Shown here: positions 2,120-18,594 of the stretch, one piece after another | Layout of the letters: the number at the start of each line of letters is the position of its first letter | Position numbering within the stretch: position 1 is the first letter of the stretch | Assembly (NCBI GenBank): GCA_018398765.1 | Contig: JAHBMJ010005724.1 | Span: forward strand, 46,122-68,265 | DNA: 22,144 bases | From: Chromera velia | Lineage: Eukaryota > Sar > Chromeraceae | Reading direction: 5' to 3' | Made by a program: the position numbers and the translations under genes | The notes under the pieces: generated by a model | Database searches by the model: none | Seen by the model: only the letters and a program-made list of their open reading frames with translations | What the model was told of the DNA's origin: nothing

Positions 2120-5100
2120 TATGTCTGCGTGCTCCACTAGAGTCCCCGTCTGAAAATTTGCGTTCTTTCTTTCATGATGAAGGAGAGATTTCCACAAATC
2201 TAAATCTAGTAGAAACATTTGGACAGGAGGAAAGCTGTGTCTGGTGCTTTTCCCTTATCCTCTTCTGTCCCATTATTGTCCCCGTTGCTTGGAATCCTCG
2301 TGGCACAGCTGCATCAGTATGTTATCCTCTTCTGTCCCATTATTGTCCTCGTTACTTGGAATCCTTGTGGCACAGCTGCAGCAGTATGTTATCCTCTTCT
2401 GTCCCATTATTGTCCTAGTTACTTGGAATCCTTGTGGCACAGCTGCATCAGTATGATACTTCTGCTCCATTTATTTTCCTGGAGATGCACACACACATAT
2501 GGCACGTGCAGGCCGAGATCGACCAAGCCGCCCGCGCCTTCACACCATCCCCCTGCTTCTGCCGTCTCTGCTTCGAGTCCTTTGTCTCCTTCCCGGGGAC
2601 TTGCCTCACACCCAGAGAGAGAGGGTCGGATATTCAACGCAGACAGACAGGTTGGAGAGACGGAAAGAGACGGCAGAAGGTCTACGAAGAGCAGAGGAGG
2701 GAGGGAAACCCAAACGTCCCCCAGAGGGAACGATTCCTGTGCAGTGCCCTCCCGTCTCCTTTCCCGTCAAGCTCAAAGAGCAGTCTCGGTCTCCCCACAT
2801 TTGATCAACAGAGTTCCTTGGTTCCTTCTTGTCCGGTCAGTCGCCTGAAAAACCTTTCTTTCTCTTTGTTTTCTTCTTCTACGGTCTTAAGCTTCGCATG
2901 AATCGTGCCTAATTTGTGCAAACACATGTGCATCTTATTCAATCGTTTTTTTTTCTGCTGATCTTCGTCCTCCTCCTCTTGTCTCGTCCACCCAGTCTCT
3001 GACAGCCCCCCCGATGTTCTCATCTTTCTTATCCTCCCTTCTGCTCTGCTCTTTCGTCTTTTCAGGCGACAAGCGAGGGCTTTAGAACTTCTAAATAAGA
3101 AGTGCGCCTCCTTGACCGTGCGAGCGGCCTATGTGACGACCGTGAAGGCCCTCAGTAGGGACGTCCTGCTGAGGGTCCAGGAAGCACACAGGTTCGAAAT
3201 CAGGAGACTGCTCTTCTACCTCTGGTCCGCGCACGCAAAAGACAACGTCAAACACAGGTGCGTGGGGGAGGGCTTTCGATCTTTCTGCGTCAAGTAATCC
3301 TTGTGTCAGCTTCCGTCTCACAAAAAGACAGCGCAACTGAATGACTCGGTCCTGTACGAAGACCATTACATGCATGCACACACAACCCTTGTTTCCTCCC
3401 TCCTCCCCCCCCTGCAGAAGTGCCCTCGAGAACGTCAGCAGAGCTGCCGCAGAGGCGTTGGGCGTTCCCTTTCTCAGGTGGAGAGTGTATGTGGAGATGA
3501 CCAAAGGCATCCGCATGAGGCAGCACGCCGAGCTAAAAACGGCAGAGGCAACCACCATCCAGGAGTCCCTTCTGTCTCTTCAGGGAATGAACAGCGAGAC
3601 GGAGGCAAAACTGGAAAGTGCGGCGGCGGAGGTGACCAGTCTGTCTGTACAGCTGAGCGCCGCCACTACCAAGGCCCTTCTGTTGAAGAATCTCCTTTCG
3701 TCGTCCTGTCACCTGTCTGTGCGAACACTCTGCAGAGGACTTCTATCTCCTTTCTTCGAGGAAGTCGCCAGACTGGCTGGCCTCAGGTAGGCCGCATGGA
3801 TCTTTGTGTCTTCCCAGGATCGACAGATTGTTTCTGCTTCTGTTTGAGTCAGATAATCTTTTTAAAAGCCGCATGATATCGACCCCCCGTTTGCTTGCAA
3901 TGTATGGCTTGCTGTACGTTTTCCATTTGCACATCTTCTCCTCTCCCATGATGTTCTTTTTTCTGTTCTTCCCGCAGGGATTGGAGTCTGGATCTCCGCC
4001 TCCACATGCAGGACTTCAAAGTGGGTGTCCCTCTCTCTCTCTCTCTCTCTCTGTGGGGTGTGTGTGTGCGTGTGTGTGAATGCATGAAATAGAAAAATGA
4101 ATGTCGTGTTGAGTAAATCCGCGCGTGTGTGCCGTCTCCCACAAGACAAGGAAGGAGTGCATGAGAGAGGGATGGAAACCTCCGCAGGCGTCCACTTCTT
4201 CACCCTTCATTTCTTTTTCTGTTCGCCCTTTCTTTTCTCGTTTCTCCATCCTTCTTTCTTTCCTTCCTTCCTTCCTTGCTTGCTTCCTCCCTTGAAGTCG
4301 CTTCTTTTTGCATTTCTTTCCTCTTCACCTTGTCTCTTTCCTTATCATCTTGTGACAGGATTTCTATTCTATTTTTGTCATCCTGCCTCTCTGGCTTGTT
4401 GATCTGACTGCAGAAACTTCTGAGTGTGGGAGAACAAAACCGAATGACCTCTATCGCCCAGCTGTCACTCGAGGGACTCTGCATTCGGTTCGTTAATTCA
4501 TTTACTTTCATACTGTATGAATCTGTATGAAAGTAAATGCATGCACGAGGGACTCTGCATTCGGTTCGTTGATTCACGTGAATGTCTGTCTCCTTGCCTG
4601 TATGTCTGCATGCCTCTTGTTGCTCTGTCAGTTGAAGGGTTTCTTCTTTTGGCGATTGACTCCTTAGCGATCACCAATTCTTTCGGGATGGTCATAAGAG
4701 TGAAGACAAAGAGTTCTTGTCTCTGCCTACCACCCCTGAGTCATTCTTCGCTCTCCATGCTTGCTTTCGTCTCGCACTGATCCCACGCACATAGACCGGC
4801 AGTCAGTCAGTCCTTGTGGACCCTTTCAAGTGCGTAATTGCTATCAACTGGAAGGAAGAGACTCTCTTCTTTCTGCTTTGGGAGGACATCTGTTTGTGCA
4901 GGTGATTGAACCTCCAACTGGCGTCTGTGAAGGCACAGGCCAATATACATTCATTCCAATACATGTATAAATATACATTATTCAAATATTCATTGGCTTG
5001 TAATGGTGCAGGTGGTTGAACCTCCAACTGGCGTCTGTGAAGGCACAGGCCAAGACCGCATTTGAGAACGACATCCCGCTGCAGAGCTCAAACCCGAGAG

Positions 5101-8091
5101 CCTTCCATCAGTCACAGATGAGGTCAGGCAAACAAAAAGAAAGAGATAACTGTGCAGGGGGACAGGCAAAGTTGAATAGAAAGACAGGGAGTCATTGCTT
5201 GTTGGAGCTCTCCTTCATTCAATTGCAAGCGTGCAACACTGTGTTCTCTCGTTGTCTTTCAGATACAAGATCCTGAAGGACCTCCCCCCGATAGGAAATC
5301 TTGGGGCCGGTCTCTCCGATGGGAGGGCCCTGGTGGCGGCGCTGTCGGGATTGAGGGACGAGAGGGAACGCGAGGGGGCGGGGGCGTTGTTGGCAGGGGG
5401 TGGAAGAGGGGCGGGTGCTGAGCTGTCTCTGGGAGACCTTTTGGGTTTAGATGATACGGATCCTTTGAGACGTTGCGAAACTGCAGTGCGTCTATTGGGG
5501 GAACTTGTGAGTGGGTCAACTGGGGCAAAGGGGCCGATGCTGCTGGAGGTCAGTGAGAGATTTTCGGTGTTCAGCCTGTCTTTTTGTTGGCTTTTTACTT
5601 TTCACTTCTGTCGACAGGCGCTCTCTAGTCATCAGAATTGGCAATTCAGTGTTCGTCTCATGGAAACAAATGCTGAGATGGATCAGCGCAGCTGATTGGC
5701 GCACTGAATATGCTGCACACACATTTCATAATCTTTGTTTGCAGGCCAAGGAGCTCTTTGAGGGTGATGAGAAGAAGATTTCTGCTGCCCTGTGTGCGTT
5801 GATCCTCTCTCGTCCTATCCTGCCGTCCTTCTCGATGGATGCCCTCTCAGAACCTCAGCTCGAGGCCCTTTTCTCTGCTCCTGAGGGGGCAAAAATGACT
5901 TCAGTAGGGGCCTCACAGGGGACGGGAGAGGAACAAAAGGGGGAGGGGGGTGAAGAAGGGACAGACAGGGAAGATGAGGAAGGTGCAAGTGGAGGAGACG
6001 GAAAGAAGGAGAAAGAAGGAGGGAATGAGCCCCTGAGCAAATCTCCCGTCTCCGCCAAATCCACTCAGCAGACTGAAGGGAAGGACCAGCTCGGGGAGTC
6101 CAAAAAGGAAGAGGAGGGAGAGGGAGGAGGGAAGGCCGGAAAGCGGAATGCAGCAGACAGTCAGTTCGATTATCCTTCTGGATTGTCTGTATCGTAGATA
6201 TGTATGCACAAGGGCATGCACAATATGGGTGATGTCACATATCCAAAATGTATTGAAGCTGGGCAGAGAGTCAGAAACTTCTTTGCCCGAGTGCTTCTGA
6301 CGTTCTTCTTCCTCTTTCTTGTTGTGGTATTTCTCCCCATAGAGTTCTTTCTCTGTGTTCCTTTTCTCTGCATCGGGAATGCCGAGGGTATTTTCTCTCT
6401 GCCGGACAACTTTCTTCATCCGAATGAGATCTTTGGTCTCCATGCGTGAAGTACTTTCTCTCTCTTTGTTTTCTTCTCTCTTCGTTTGTGCGTGTGTCTG
6501 CAGATCTACCGCTCCTCTCTGATCCGGTGGCAACGGCAATTCATGCGGTGAGATCCTTGAGAGAACGCACAGCACTTGTGTTGGAGCGTCGGGACTCTTT
6601 TCCTGATTTTGCGCTTCTGCTTCGGAGAGGCGAGCTCTTGGAAAGACTTGAGAGACTATCGGTGGAGGACCTCATCCTCAGGTGAGCGCTTGGGAAGATG
6701 AAACCCGGGCTGCCGTTGTTTGTTTACACACACATCGCGGTGACGTACAGGCTGAAAAGAAACGTTGAAAATTATGTATGTAGGGGGAGAGAAACACGCC
6801 ACGGTTTTTTATTCCAGTTGCCCTCATTGCGTTGTTTTTCGTTTTCTTCTTCCCACAGCCGCGCTGCTCTCCACGATTCCTTCTTTCACGCATTCTGAGG
6901 AGAAAGGACGTCCTTTCTCTTGACCTTCATTTCTGAAACATGGATTCCGTTTCTTGAGTAAGAGACTGAACATGCGCATTATTTTTCAACCAATGAGACA
7001 AACCGGATGCATGAAATCACACAGACGCATATTTTGAGCGGGTCTCTTTGCATCTTTTTTTCTTTCTTCAGGTGGGTGAACTTCCACATATCCTCATTGG
7101 CCTCGGAGGTGCAGAGCTTCTCGGACGACCTGCGTGACGGAGCCGCCCTTTTTCTTCTGTTGAACGTGATCGCTCCAGAGACGGTGCCGAAGGAGGCGGG
7201 GGTCCCTGACGCGAGGAGACGGGCAGAACTTGTGGTGGAGGCGGGGAGACGGGTAGGGTCCTTCTCCCTCCTCACTCCCGACGCCATTCTGGAGGGCCAG
7301 GCGGACCTTCTGGCCGCATTTGCTGCGTCGCTCTTCATGGCAAGGTGAGAGGGAAGGAAGGAGGGAAAAAAATAAATACTTAGAGATCAATTTGCAGACA
7401 GTTAGAGACAAAGTTCATTAGGAGGAATGAAGAAGATCAGACAAGCTGAGAGGCTCATGCATTTTTTTTGTTAACAGTAGCTTGACAACTTTTCCTCCTC
7501 CGCTCTTCGGTCCTGTACTGAGTGTTTGTTCATCGTTTTCACCTGATTTCATCTTTATTCTTCTCTTCTTGGGCGTATGTAACTGCAGGCCTGCGCTTCT
7601 TGTCCGTCCCTCCAGCTCCCTCAAGTCTCCCCTGGAGCTGCTGAACACAGCCAACGCCACATGGCACGCCCACGCGAGGCAGCTGAGCCTCAGGGAAGAG
7701 AGGAAGAGAAGATTAGAGGGAGGAATGAGCCCAGCTTCACCGCGTCGCATCACTGCGGTGGGCGTTTCTTCCTCCCCTGGGGCGGCGTCTGGGGGAAGGT
7801 CTGGTGGTGCAGAGGAGAAACAAGAGGAGGCTGCCAGACTCAGACAGGAGGCAGAGGAGCTCCGGGAATCCGAGAGCTTTGTTGAATACCTCGATGACCT
7901 CAACAGACAACTCCCGAGATTAGAGGCAGCAAAGAGGGTAGGTGCATTGGGCAACCTCACAAGTCTCCCTCTAGGCTCACACTTTGTTTCTGCTGTCCCT
8001 CAATTCAAAGCGCATCATCAGTCTTTCAGTCAGCATGCTTACAGGAAGAGTGTGGATGTTTTTTTTTTCTTTTTTTCTTTTTGTCTTTTTT

Positions 8092-12245: not shown

Positions 12246-13795
12246 CTATCCGGCTTGTTGACCGGTCGACCCCCTGCTTCCTCCCCTAGCAGGCGACTGC
12301 CCCTCTCTTGACCCCCCTGCCCGCCCCCCTCGTCTGGGAGAGAACGCAGCTGCTGCAGCTGCAGAAGAAGAAGAGGAAGAAGAAAATGGGAGAGGGGAAA
12401 GCTGTAACAGCCTGGAGGTCGGGGAGAGGGAAGTACGCCTCCGTGAGGCAGAAATGTGGTTTGCGTTGTCCTCTCCTGCCTGCCCCCCGACCGACAGTCT
12501 GCCCCTCCGCGTAGGACTTTGGCTCTGACCTTCCCTGTCCCCCCCCTTTTCTTCCTCCTTCCGTCTCCCTCCCTCAGCCTCCCTGTCTCTGAACCCGCTC
12601 CGTGCACGTGCCGGTGATGACTCACTGGCACCTTCTGCTTCGGGGGGGGCGTTCCGTCTCCTTGGAGAGACGGAGACGCTCTGACGTCTTGTGGGAGACC
12701 TTCCACTTCCCTTCTCCCTCTGCCCCTGTCTCTGTTTCCGTGCCTCCTCTTCCTTCAAGAGCATACCGAGACGGCCGTCGAGAAACATCCGAAGGGTTTC
12801 CCCATTGCGAAGGTAGGGCACATAGGGTGCAGGGAGAGCGGCATCGAGTGGAGGTTGGGGTAAGGAGGGGGGAGGGTTGGAGGGTTGAGCGTTTGCCGTT
12901 CCGTTCCCGAGGGGCAGGAAGGGTCTGGGTGGGGGTGGGGGTGTGGGGAGTTGGAGGGGCCACTCCATTCCGGTTCTCTCGTTGACCAGAGAGAAGTCTC
13001 CCATGTCACTGCAAGCAAGGATCATTTAGATTCGTCCCGTTTTTGCATGTCGCTGAATTTCCAACTCTACGCTTACTTCAACCACCGACATTCTGAGAAG
13101 TTTGGACAGGCGTCTGCTCACGTGCAATCCATAGAAGAACATTCTTTCGTCTCTCTCTCTCTCCCTCCCCATTCGTCTATGCGAATGTGCATCTGTCACA
13201 ACCGCGAAACGCCGCCGAAGCACACCAAGTGGACTTGCCTGAAGCGTTGGACTTCAATCGGAATGAAAGTTCGACAGGAGAGAATCAGATTTTCAAATCA
13301 AAGCCCATGCAGAGCGGAAATGAGCGAATATCTTGTGAATGGTAGACGAATAATGACCGATTCCTCTTTCACTGCAGCGATGCCTCCCGCCCTTTTCTTC
13401 TTGCAACTCTGTCGATCGAGCGAATGTTTGCCATCTGAATGAATTTCACTCTGACATTGCTTCATCACTCTTTGCTGCGCAGACCCCAAAACGAATGACG
13501 CTTCTCAAGCTCAAAGAAGGAACGAGACTGACTGACTGACTAACGCGATCAAATTGAGGACTCTGGCCACTCTCATCCAGGTCATCACGGGGACGGGTTT
13601 CGGAGCGTCGATGGGGACCAGAACCTTCGGAATGGGGGGGAAGAAGTGGCCCGAAGCTTTCTTCAGGGGGTCGCACTCAGCCGGCAATCCACCTCCCCAG
13701 GCAACTGAATACGCGAGGGGAAGCTGCGGATGCGGGATGGACCTCAGCTCCTCCTCCGTGAGGTCGTCTTTGAGGAATTTCTCTGCATGCATCAT
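12246..13795 (-). CDS. Two-exon gene, Pro-rich and Arg/Ser-Pro-rich protein
   Basis: I do not recognise this protein. Exon 1 runs 13795 to 13545 and exon 2 runs 13008 to 12246 (stop TAG). The intron has a GTTAGT donor and a TTGCAG acceptor, and phase 2 agrees on both sides. Length is 337 residues if the start is the ATGATG at 13795-13790. The first 84 residues look folded, with KDDLTEEELRSIPHPQLPL and FFPPIPKVLVPI. Next come a Pro-rich segment (TPPPPPRPFLPL), an ordered patch near VPYLRNGETLRMFLDGRLG, and a long disordered tail with repeated RSPTRR, SPRRR and SPTSR motifs and a Ser/Ala run. Basic Ser-Pro motifs suggest phosphorylation and perhaps a nuclear or cytoskeletal role; this is inference. 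The start lies within a tandem repeat, so upstream exons and an acceptor at the same place remain possible. Confidence 0.6.
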
Positions 13796-14145
13796 CCATG
13801 GGGGTCCCGTATCGACCGTGTGGGCACAGACAAAAGGAAAGAAAAGAGGAATTTCTCTGCATCCATCATCCATGGGGGTCCCGTATCGACCGTGTGGGCA
13901 CAGACAAAAGGAAAGAAAAGAGGAATTTCTCTGCATGCATCATCCATGGGGGTCCCGTATCGACCGTGTGGGCACAGACAAAAGGAAAGAAAAGAGGAAT
14001 TTCTCTGCATCCATCATCCATGGGGGTCCCGCATCGACCGTGTGGGCACAGACAAAAGGAAAGAAAAGAGGAATTTCTCTGCATCCATCATCCATGGGGG
14101 TCCCGTATCGACCGTGTGGGCACAGACACAAGGAAAGAAAAGAGT
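13772..14145 (-). repeat. 74-bp tandem array, five copies, at the 5' edge of the minus-strand gene
   Basis: GAGGAATTT anchors recur at 13772, 13846, 13920, 13994 and 14068, exactly 74 bp apart. Copies differ by a G/C swap (GCATGCATC or GCATCCATC; copies 1 and 3 against 2, 4 and 5) and one T/C change in copy 4. Read on the minus strand, each unit is pyrimidine-rich, then has ATGGATGATG, then GCAGAG and the first nine bases of coding sequence. The innermost copy runs on into real coding sequence. Because 74 is not a multiple of three and the unit is open, all three plus frames stay open through the array; these are artefacts. Confidence 0.93.
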
Positions 14146-14278
14146 GGGGGTGCGGGGTCGGAAAAGAGACAAGTTAAACAACAGGTGGAGAAAGCCCTAC
14201 AGAGTCAAAGAGTAGACGTCTCTTTCTTCATGATGCGACTTTTACAAAAACATTCCTCTCTCACTCTCTCCTTCTCAC

Positions 14279-15706: not shown

Positions 15707-16543
15707 ATGAGTGGCGTCACAGACGAAGGGGGGGACGCTGGGAGTTTACGAGAGAGTGCGGGGGCAGAGAGCAATCGGAAGACACGAGAGGCCCGGCGCC
15801 ATGAGAAACGGCAGAAGGCTCTTGAAAATCTCAGCAAGATGCGGGATATGGCAAAAGAACGGCATGACCTGTTCGATTCCATGCTGAAGGAATTGAGAGA
15901 GCTTCGATCGCGCGTGAAGAGTTTGGAACTCGAGAAGAAGAGGCTGCAGGATGAAGTGACTGACTTGAGATTACAAGGAAACGACGACGTGAGGGAGAGC
16001 TGTAAGTCGTTTCGGACTGTCCTGGAAGGACAAAGAGAAAGTGTCCACCCTGTCCTTCCTCTGTGCCACCATCCGTGCTGTGTCGTTCTCCTGCACCCCC
16101 TGTCATTCCCATCTTTCCGCTCTCCCACGTTCGCCGTCTCCTCTGCGTTTTCCCCCAATCTCTCGTCCACTCCTCGGCTAATCTACCCTGTCTGTCTGTT
16201 TGTTCGCGTGTGACCTCATCCATCTGTCAGTAGCTCTATGCGTATGTCTGTCCACATCGATCATTCATCTTTCCCGCCTGTAATGCCCCCTTTCTTTCGC
16301 CGTTTTGACGGATACACTTCACTCCACTGCAGCCACTGCACCCACGTCACCCCTCTCGCACTCGTGCTGTGTCTCTATGCCCCCTTCTGCTTTGCGACTG
16401 TTCTCTTTGACATGGCTCTTCTGCTTGCGTCCACCTCTTGTCCGTTCCTTTTCCTTCCCGAGTACTGCCCTCTCCCTCTGGCTGCTCCCCTCAGTAGCTT
16501 TCGCCCCCTCGCATCCTCGTACCACGCATGTACAACGACAATG

Positions 16544-16606
<63 letters not shown>

Positions 16607-16634
16607 CCCTCACACACACCCTCACACACACCCT

Positions 16635-16665
<31 letters not shown>

Positions 16666-18146
16666 GTTGTCCATCTTCCCTCCGTGCAGACGCCGAGAAG
16701 GAATTACAGATTTTCAAAAAGAAGTACGACCAGATTACTGTTGAGAACATTAGGCTGAATAAAGAGCTCGGAAAGGTCTCCAAGCGACCCCCTCTTCCCC
16801 CCAAGGGGGGGGGGAGTTACGCCAACACGAACGGTGGCCTGGGGCTGCACACAGACCTAGATGAGGCTGGATACCCTCCCCATATACCTCACACCCCCCG
16901 TACCGCGGCGTATTCTTCTCACGACGGCCTCCTCAGAGCAAACGGAGGTTCTGCTCCCTTCCGACGAAGCAGTTCCGATCATCGTCTCCCCTTCCACCCT
17001 CCACCCGGGTCCGCCGTCGGTTCTGCAGCAGGGCAGCGGTCTAACTCCCAGTCAGTGCTCGATTTTCTAGATCCAGAGAAACCCAAACCCCCGCCTTCCC
17101 CCTGTCACGCACCTCATCGCCATCCGCGTGTTGATGATGATGGGGCAGAGACAGAACGTAGTCCGCCTGTGACGTCCCTTGCCCCCTCTCAGTCTGGCTT
17201 TCCTATGTCCCCCAATGCATCCTCCTCTTCCCGGGCCGACCCCCAAGAAGACGAAAACGGTTTGGCAATGGAGGAGGTGCCTTCGGATGATCAGGAAGAG
17301 GAAGAGGGGAACAAACTTTTGGAGGGGGCGTTTCGGTCTCTGACGGCATCAGGTGGAGCCAGAGAGGGCCATATGAGTGCCGGGGGGCGGGTAGGGGCAT
17401 CTCAACAGCTTCTTTCTCCGCATCGGAGAAGGGATGGGGGAAGTCCGCCCGGGGAAAGGGGGACGTCGTTAGGGGTGCGTAGAGAGAGAGGAAGGTCACA
17501 AGGGGGGTATATTGGGGGTATTGAAAGAGATAGAGATAGAGACAGGGGGGGGGCTCCTGGGGGGGTTCGCGGGGGTCCCACCTATCCGGCCTCTTCTCGT
17601 CCGCGTTTATCCTCTGACTTGCAACCTGGAGGTGGGGGAGGATACTCGCATGTTAATGGTACCTCCACTGGGCATCCGCACGCGCGTTCTTCTTATGAAC
17701 ACGACGTGGGTCGGGTGCGACAGTCAGCGGGGGGTCCTGTGAGGGCAAATGCTACAGCAGTCAGGGGGCTCGGGTTTTTGGGTGGGCGGAGGGAATTTGG
17801 TCTTCAGGGCCTCGAAGGGGGGGGGGTTGAGGTTGGAGGAACAGAGAGGGACGAGGGGTCGAAACCGCCCTCACCTGCCGGGTCGTGGTTTGGGAAACTG
17901 TTTGGAGGGTCCCAAAAGGCAGATACGCAGGGCCACCAGGCAGCAGCAAACGGGGGTGTTCCGTTGAACGGCACCCCATTGGGAGGGGGCAGGAAGCCGG
18001 GGGGGTGGAAGAGTAGTGCGCCTGCAGGCGGGCATCATGATGGTAGGGGTAACGGGGGTGAGAATGGTACTGTTGGCCGGGAAGGGTTGGACGATCTTGG
18101 GAATGGTCCGGTAAGAAATGATTGGGAATACATACCTCCTTTCTGA
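15707..18146 (+). CDS. Coiled-coil protein with long Gly/Pro/Ser-rich tail
   Basis: Two exons: 15707-16001 and 16690-18146, joined in phase 1 (donor GTAAGT, acceptor GTGCAG), giving 583 residues. The start is well supported by an in-frame TAA at 15698-15700. Residues about 22-130 form a coiled coil (for example [19 protein letters not shown], then [19 protein letters not shown]), and exon 2 continues it with [27 protein letters not shown] motif, which resembles an SH3-binding site, marks its end. The rest is disordered: Ser/Pro-rich, an acidic patch [10 protein letters not shown], Arg/Gly-rich repeats, and a short patch SWFGKLFGG before the C-terminus DWEYIPPF. No catalytic domain is visible. 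A scaffold or cytoskeletal linker is plausible but unproven. Several runs of 9-10 G lie inside exon 2. Confidence 0.82.
16546..16665 (+). repeat. (CA)n microsatellite in the coiled-coil gene's intron
   Basis: About 120 bp of CA repeats with CCCT interruptions at regular 14-bp steps (ACACACCCTC units near 16604-16638), ending just upstream of the acceptor at 16689. It replaces the usual polypyrimidine tract with alternating purine/pyrimidine, a pattern able to form Z-DNA. The open frame that reads His-Thr repeats through it is an artefact of the CA period. Confidence 0.93.
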
Positions 18147-18222
18147 ACCTCCGATGTGACTGACTGTTTCTTGAACCTCCGGTGTGACTGACTGTTTCTT
18201 GAACCTCCGGTGTGACTGACTG
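18140..18222 (+). repeat. 27/28-bp tandem repeat spanning the stop codon
   Basis: Copy 1 (18140-18166) is TTTC then TGAACCTCC..., and its TGA is the stop codon of the coiled-coil gene. Copies 2 (18167-18194) and 3 (18195-18222) have an extra T and a G for A. A (CTGG)n run follows at about 18228-18250. The extra T means later copies do not keep the same stop frame. Confidence 0.9.
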
Positions 18223-18594
18223 ACCGACTGGCTGGCTGGCTGGCTGGCTGATTGATTCGCGGACTCATTGCATGATTGGAAGGAAGAAGAGACTTCTGTT
18301 TCGTTGAGGTGGTGATACTGGGAGAGCGAATGGATGAAGAAGAGAAGAGGCGTGCATGTACATTTTGTATGTGTGTGTGGGTGATCTGACTCTATTTTGT
18401 ATGTGTGCGGACAAAAAAGTTGGAAGGACGTAGGGAAAAGCGTTGTTGTGCTGCCTTTCTTTTCGACGTACAAAACTTTATCTTCTTTATTCTTTTGTCA
18501 CTCCATCTAGATTCCTTTTCTTTTTCTGCCAAACTTCCAGGGACGGAATTCCCTTCCATCGTGGAATTCCTTTCTTCCTTTGAGCTCGTTATTA

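Follow-up and report, generated by a model that had tools for sequence, protein, structure and literature searches.

In Chromera velia, duplicated exon-intron boundaries flank small hairpin elements and, probably, further short inserts

Introduction

In MITE and foldback families, the target duplication is short and of fixed length, and in the case of poison exons and decoy splice sites, a spare site is present whose use yields an early stop. When introns are gained by tandem duplication or break repair, duplicated splice signals are said to supply the raw material for intron change. Two articles deal with this form of intron gain (PMC2809761; PMC3296678). Introners, for their part, make new introns and, in the sections of the sources concerned, come with direct repeats of 3–9 bp and 3–5 nt (PMC9860276; PMC7789003). 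Among the titles and abstract beginnings listed in searches of the open-access literature, none dealt with splice-junction duplications in Chromera or with hairpins bearing such duplications.

An assembly of Chromera velia is given, in the part of its description considered, as 193.66 Mb in 5953 scaffolds (PMC4501334), and a set of about 313 million Chromera reads is described elsewhere (PMC6920818). The window analysed here, i.e., the whole stretch of 22,144 nt from contig JAHBMJ010005724.1 of assembly GCA_018398765.1 (positions 46,122 to 68,265 of the forward strand), contains an intron with a direct duplication at each end, namely one across the donor and one across the acceptor. The original prediction had singled out the acceptor-side duplication, which is real, but had overlooked its counterpart across the donor.

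Materials and Methods

The comparison covers 42 loci, namely 13 picked by BLAST, 28 picked by a strict hairpin pattern and the donor side of the window. The 13 do not include the BLAST matches L001, L004, L005, L009, L016, L018 and L020, which were dropped as corresponding to the window itself or to second matches at the same place. The matches listed for the strict pattern included 50 of the 55 sites, spread over 42 contigs, 35 of which were examined. Four loci picked for their array or long-palindrome look (L062–L065) stand outside the 42. The duplications at L003, L007 and L014, missed by the automatic search, were set by hand, as was that of L013.

Gene structure was predicted by an unsupervised HMM, for which the window plus 193 kb from other contigs served as the first training material; 33 fetched loci and exon context were added in a second round of training, the final training set including 34 of the 42 tested loci. 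For the junction test, one copy of the duplicated block was deleted together with the insert, which gives the empty site, and the HMM probability of a junction within the block was recorded. Pfam was applied to 10 of the 32 block-adjacent peptides, picked as familiar-looking and some of them trimmed.

Results

The intron spans positions 4488–5011 (524 nt). It is preceded by an exon at 4414–4487 (+), reading KLLSVGEQNRMTSIAQLSLEGLCIR in translation and delimited in the HMM by an acceptor at 4413 and a donor at 4488, and followed by an exon at 5012–5122 (+), which begins one base before a Trp codon in translation and is called with the same limits by the HMM. On the acceptor side, positions 4896–4943 and 5006–5053 (both +) are identical at 47 of 48 bases, the sole mismatch being A at 4905 versus G at 5015; each copy is composed of 6 nt of intron end (GTGCAG) and 42 nt of exon, and base 4905 turns TGG into TGA (4903–4905) in the upstream copy. 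Both the duplication, with its acceptor and 42 nt of coding sequence, and the stop as its single difference had been claimed beforehand and held upon alignment. Spliced from donor 4488 to acceptor 5011, the translation reads LEGLCIR followed by WLNLQLASVKAQAK, while splicing to acceptor 4901 places a stop directly after LEGLCIR. The upstream copy provides a spare acceptor with a putative exon start at 4902, scoring 7.1, i.e., above the 5.3 of the working acceptor downstream, whose exon starts at 5012. The HMM assigns a probability of 0.999 to acceptor 5011 and of 0 to acceptor 4901, but since this model weighs the reading frame, the latter value is uninformative on splicing strength. With two good acceptors, the upstream one scoring higher, the cell must choose between them and may leak to the spare one.

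The two copies are separated by an AT-rich insert of 62 nt (4944–5005, no strand assigned). A genome search, which skips very common words, returned no copy of this insert besides itself, its folding is no better than that of shuffles (z −0.7), and its likeness to the hairpin family described below is not significant, 60 of 500 shuffles reaching its score; a loose motif test flags it as hairpin-like, a result given no weight.

The original prediction further placed the stop at the conserved Trp of CH1. By eye this fits, the stretch LCIRWLNL being comparable to LILRWVNF of the clear CH domain, which lies downstream and is recognised by Pfam with an E-value of 4e-12. In the CH1 region, Pfam CH stays under its cut-off (E 0.01 and 0.04) with a matched stretch that begins past the Trp, and BLASTP between the CH1 stretch and the clear CH stretch is not significant; because the Pfam score is under the cut-off, the CH1 assignment is plausible but unproven.

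On the donor side, positions 4470–4500 and 4546–4576 (both +) are identical at 30 of 31 bases, the repeated block comprising 18 exonic and 13 intronic bases, with a hairpin of 45 nt in between (4501–4545, no strand assigned). The first copy holds the working donor GTTCGT at 4488 (HMM donor probability 0.72) and the second a spare, intronic donor at 4564, whose score of 2.76 equals that of the first. The remaining intron body between both duplications amounts to 319 nt (4577–4895, +). Chance cannot plausibly give a match of such length and spacing, and a scan of the window yields only two such spaced repeats, i.e., the acceptor-side and the donor-side ones.

Under a looser scan, a single further repeat appears, a 67-nt unit in three tandem copies inside the gene (2255–2458), with an HMM junction probability of 0.03 in the block. 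Elsewhere in the window, a 74-bp unit is repeated about five times without insert on the minus strand (13772–14218), with an HMM minus-strand acceptor at 13783 in the exon-adjoining copy; it constitutes a third splice-site duplication of the window, and a genome search finds the unit nowhere else. A 28-nt unit in three tandem copies (18144–18227) abuts the end of a long open frame (16305–18146).

The donor-side insert is clearly a member of a dispersed hairpin family. As a foldback element, it gives a DNA fold of −13 kcal/mol over 4496–4550 (z −6.3), and the strict hairpin pattern occurs at 55 sites in the genome of 177.8 Mb (4040 contigs) versus none in the reversed control. A 20-nt hairpin arm has 168 + 184 genome matches, again with none in the control. 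When the intron is used as a genome query, 25 rows are returned, and all 24 besides the full self match cover the hairpin part, one of these being the window's own hairpin read backwards. No sequence in viral_contigs matches a 22-nt arm exactly, and plasmid records gave no match. The longest arm noticed, at L062, is about TTTACTTTCATACAGAATTCTTTTTCAGGGAGCGC. In 12 arm copies scored for splice-site likeness (L043–L057), the end of one arm, TTTACTTTCATACAG, is acceptor-like with a score of 4–5, close to the genome median of 4.8, and the other arm contains a donor-like motif, either GTATGA (1.2–2.8) or GTAAA (2.5–4.4), for a genome donor median of 4.2; with such splice-like motifs in its arms, the hairpin element may carry its own weak splice sites.

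Direct duplications enclose all 28 hairpins chosen by hairpin sequence alone (20/20 and 8/8), the weakest being that of L048 (15 of 16 nt), and likewise flank all 13 BLAST-picked hairpin loci. Over the 42 loci, block length ranges from 16 to 82 nt (median 33.5), and most units measure about 70–140 nt. L003 and L014 are four-copy arrays and L007 has an 18-nt block with mismatches. Identity between copies reaches 1436 of 1479 positions over 42 of 43 blocks, L013 being excluded as gapped and the blocks being selected for likeness in the first place. The G+C content of 43 blocks is 0.54 versus 0.49 in their surroundings, and by eye the outer block edges display no motif that would name an enzyme. 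Hairpin ends are sometimes truncated and arms partly repeated. Hairpins and blocks also form arrays; an exon end, together with its donor, occurs six times at L063, and an acceptor-like block seven times at L065. Among the loci picked for their look, L062 is a long near-palindrome, and the arrays at L063, L064 and L065 have 6, 6 and 7 blocks, respectively, placed around hairpins. At L015, which also has a hairpin duplication, a separate 60-nt duplication (1704–1873, 58/60 identical) consists of an acceptor-like block around a 50-nt non-hairpin insert.

With the insert and one copy removed, a junction is predicted within the block (P > 0.5) at 29 of 42 loci, corresponding to 17 of the 28 pattern-picked loci, 11 of the 13 BLAST-picked ones and the window donor. 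The mean junction probability is 0.648 over the 42 loci, compared with 0.116 in windows of the same size from the same loci, a level reached in none of 20000 random draws. A junction falls in the block at six of the eight held-out loci, i.e., those absent from HMM training. The first, weaker HMM already placed one in the block at 13 of 31 loci for 3.8 expected, and failed on the window's own donor. By class, 29 blocks hold a junction, 11 are noncoding and 2 exonic, the respective fractions of control windows being 0.106, 0.647 and 0.246. From these fractions, random insertion followed by loss of exonic events predicts far fewer junction blocks, i.e., about 14:86 junction to noncoding instead of 29:11 (binomial 9e-17). 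Among the 13 blocks without predicted junction, some may have one that was overlooked, and others may be truly noncoding. Donor-type blocks contain more exon than intron (medians 31 versus 6 nt at 13 loci; Wilcoxon 0.0002), and in acceptor-type blocks (16 loci) exon and intron content do not differ significantly (p 0.11).

As a control, 193 kb from 20 arbitrary contig stretches, a small sample, contain a single junction-bearing spaced duplication (L025, P 0.98) and none with a junction around non-hairpin filler. The other spaced duplications of this control, mostly repeat families, have junction probabilities of at most 0.32; duplication per se thus does not trigger the HMM junction call. The L025 duplication (429–569) is a perfect one of 42 nt whose insert resembles a decayed hairpin, none of 500 shuffles reaching its score, and this is the only hairpin-like insert among the spaced duplications of the control.

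Pfam backs the coding side in seven genes, with families above cut-off, namely kinesin (L071), actin (L066), FAD_binding_2 with Succ_DH_flav_C (L008), Ras (L019), NOG1_N with MMR_HSR1 (L014), mitochondrial carrier (L013) and SNF2 (L003); SET is sub-threshold at L017, and two further scanned peptides are without family. PDB searches concur on actin and kinesin. For kinesin, the reading is GYNSTVLAYGQTGSG in the working copy, which is intact, and GYNSTVLAYRQTGSG in the spare one, where Arg replaces a Gly of the GQTGSG motif; in this single picked example, the change in the spare copy is a damaging one, like the TGA at 4903–4905, as expected of an idle copy.

In terms of splice-site scores, the spare acceptor outscores the working one in 7 of 15 acceptor-type blocks (chosen from clear calls, together with the window acceptor), ties with it in 5 and falls below it in 3. 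Among 10 donor-type blocks, the spare donor outscores the working one once, falls below it three times and ties with it in the other 6. When the whole extra length is used for arrays, it is divisible by three at 14 of 42 loci, which is the chance level, so there is no sign of selection for inclusion; taken as single units, 10 of 42 are multiples of three, several array lengths being off by a base.

Discussion

The acceptor-side duplication is quite probably a scar, left when a short DNA segment inserted at the border of exon and intron with an unusually long target duplication. In the sequence of events proposed, a short insert would enter along with a long direct duplication of its target, i.e., 48 nt on the acceptor side and 31 nt on the donor side. 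Since the whole splice site is contained in the block, both the insert and a spare copy would end up intronic, and the mRNA could stay unchanged if the copy adjoining the exon body is used. Insertions would persist where the block regenerates a splice site. The hairpin may be mobile, the duplication being left by staggered breakage, and insertion may prefer exon edges, or else exons with later loss of harmful events. Having neither a second copy nor a significant likeness to the hairpins, the 62-nt insert is connected to them only by its anatomy, from which we infer that it arose by the same process. The spare acceptor would be mostly silent. The anatomy itself recurs with a single dispersed family of hairpins, and an excess of predicted junctions is present in the duplicated blocks.

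The original prediction had offered either a poison switch or a recent duplication that its position keeps harmless. The latter fits best, the recurrence of the anatomy around a repeated hairpin giving it a likely cause, and the poison option is without positive evidence. A poison-acceptor switch would consist in the conditional use of 4901, so that the TGA just past the junction lowers the amount of mRNA by nonsense-mediated decay. The spare acceptor is indeed complete, it outscores the working one (7.1 versus 5.3) and its predicted use gives an immediate stop; yet the same anatomy is found in unrelated genes, and at the hairpin loci most idle copies would lead to a stop or a frameshift, the extra length failing to be a multiple of three in 28 of 42 cases, as by chance, which makes such a switch decidedly improbable. 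An assembly artefact is scarcely credible: a short-read Chromera assembly with many low-complexity stretches, as parts of its description have it (PMC4501334), might produce one, but here many independent loci with differing blocks and with mismatches between copies are involved, and most units are about 70–140 nt. Even so, the copy number of the long arrays may be wrong in the assembly.

Beyond insertion as such, what brings hairpins and exon-intron boundaries together can be read in several ways. We tentatively propose, as a possibility short of an even chance, a mobile hairpin that homes to these boundaries, its machinery sensing junction DNA or a transcription-linked structure, copying 16–82 nt and multiplying splice sites (6–7 in some arrays) with the gene left unbroken. 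Break repair could achieve as much without any mobile element, if, at the edges of exons under transcription, staggered breaks or a switch of template copied 15–80 nt of flank and captured filler, the hairpin being no more than a favoured filler. The variable block length, the truncated hairpin ends and partly repeated arms, the 62-nt insert with no other genome copy and the non-hairpin insert within the acceptor-like duplication of L015 all suit break repair, whereas arms identical at hundreds of genome places do not, nor does the hairpin-like insert in the sole junction-spanning spaced duplication of the 193 kb control, small as that sample is; on balance we consider this account doubtful, though worth keeping in view. 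That insertion strikes anywhere and selection removes the exonic events, the junction excess reflecting survival alone, agrees with the scarcity of exonic-looking blocks (2/42 versus 0.246 of control windows) but would make junction blocks about 14% of the survivors, against 29 of 40 seen, and is therefore unlikely.

Should the junction preference prove true on a full annotation, it would represent a mutational route to spare splice sites in bulk, as raw material for alternative splicing, and a class of elements evading purge by duplicating the very signal they interrupt. If boundary homing were true, introns would grow and gain spare donors and acceptors in bulk. The natural arrays, in addition, make the choice of the spliceosome among near-identical donors or acceptors directly testable.

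Respective to described systems, the locus shares with poison exons and decoy sites an alternative acceptor, 4901, whose use gives a premature stop in translation, the difference being that the anatomy would here be explained by insertion. It differs from intron gain by duplication or repair in that the copies lie on either side of an insert and that an intron already present has become longer. The donor-side insert resembles MITE and foldback elements as a dispersed near-palindrome without coding capacity, with dispersed copies and inverted-repeat ends (55 sites versus 0; z −6.3), a family to which the 62-nt insert cannot be assigned (no other copy; 60/500 shuffles). In place of a short, fixed target duplication, however, the blocks span 16–82 nt (median 33.5 over 42 loci) and mostly hold a predicted splice junction. 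With introners, described in parts of the literature as short repeated elements, often with inverted repeats, linked with introns and their splice sites in protists, alveolates among them (PMC9860276; PMC7789003), the difference lies in the 16–82 nt direct repeats and in a window insert located at one end of a longer intron: the window does not have a new intron with the element or its duplication as its limits, but one of 524 nt in which 319 nt of other sequence lie between the duplications. The likeness lies in similar elements being found at many introns, 29 of the 42 loci having theirs at a predicted exon-intron junction.
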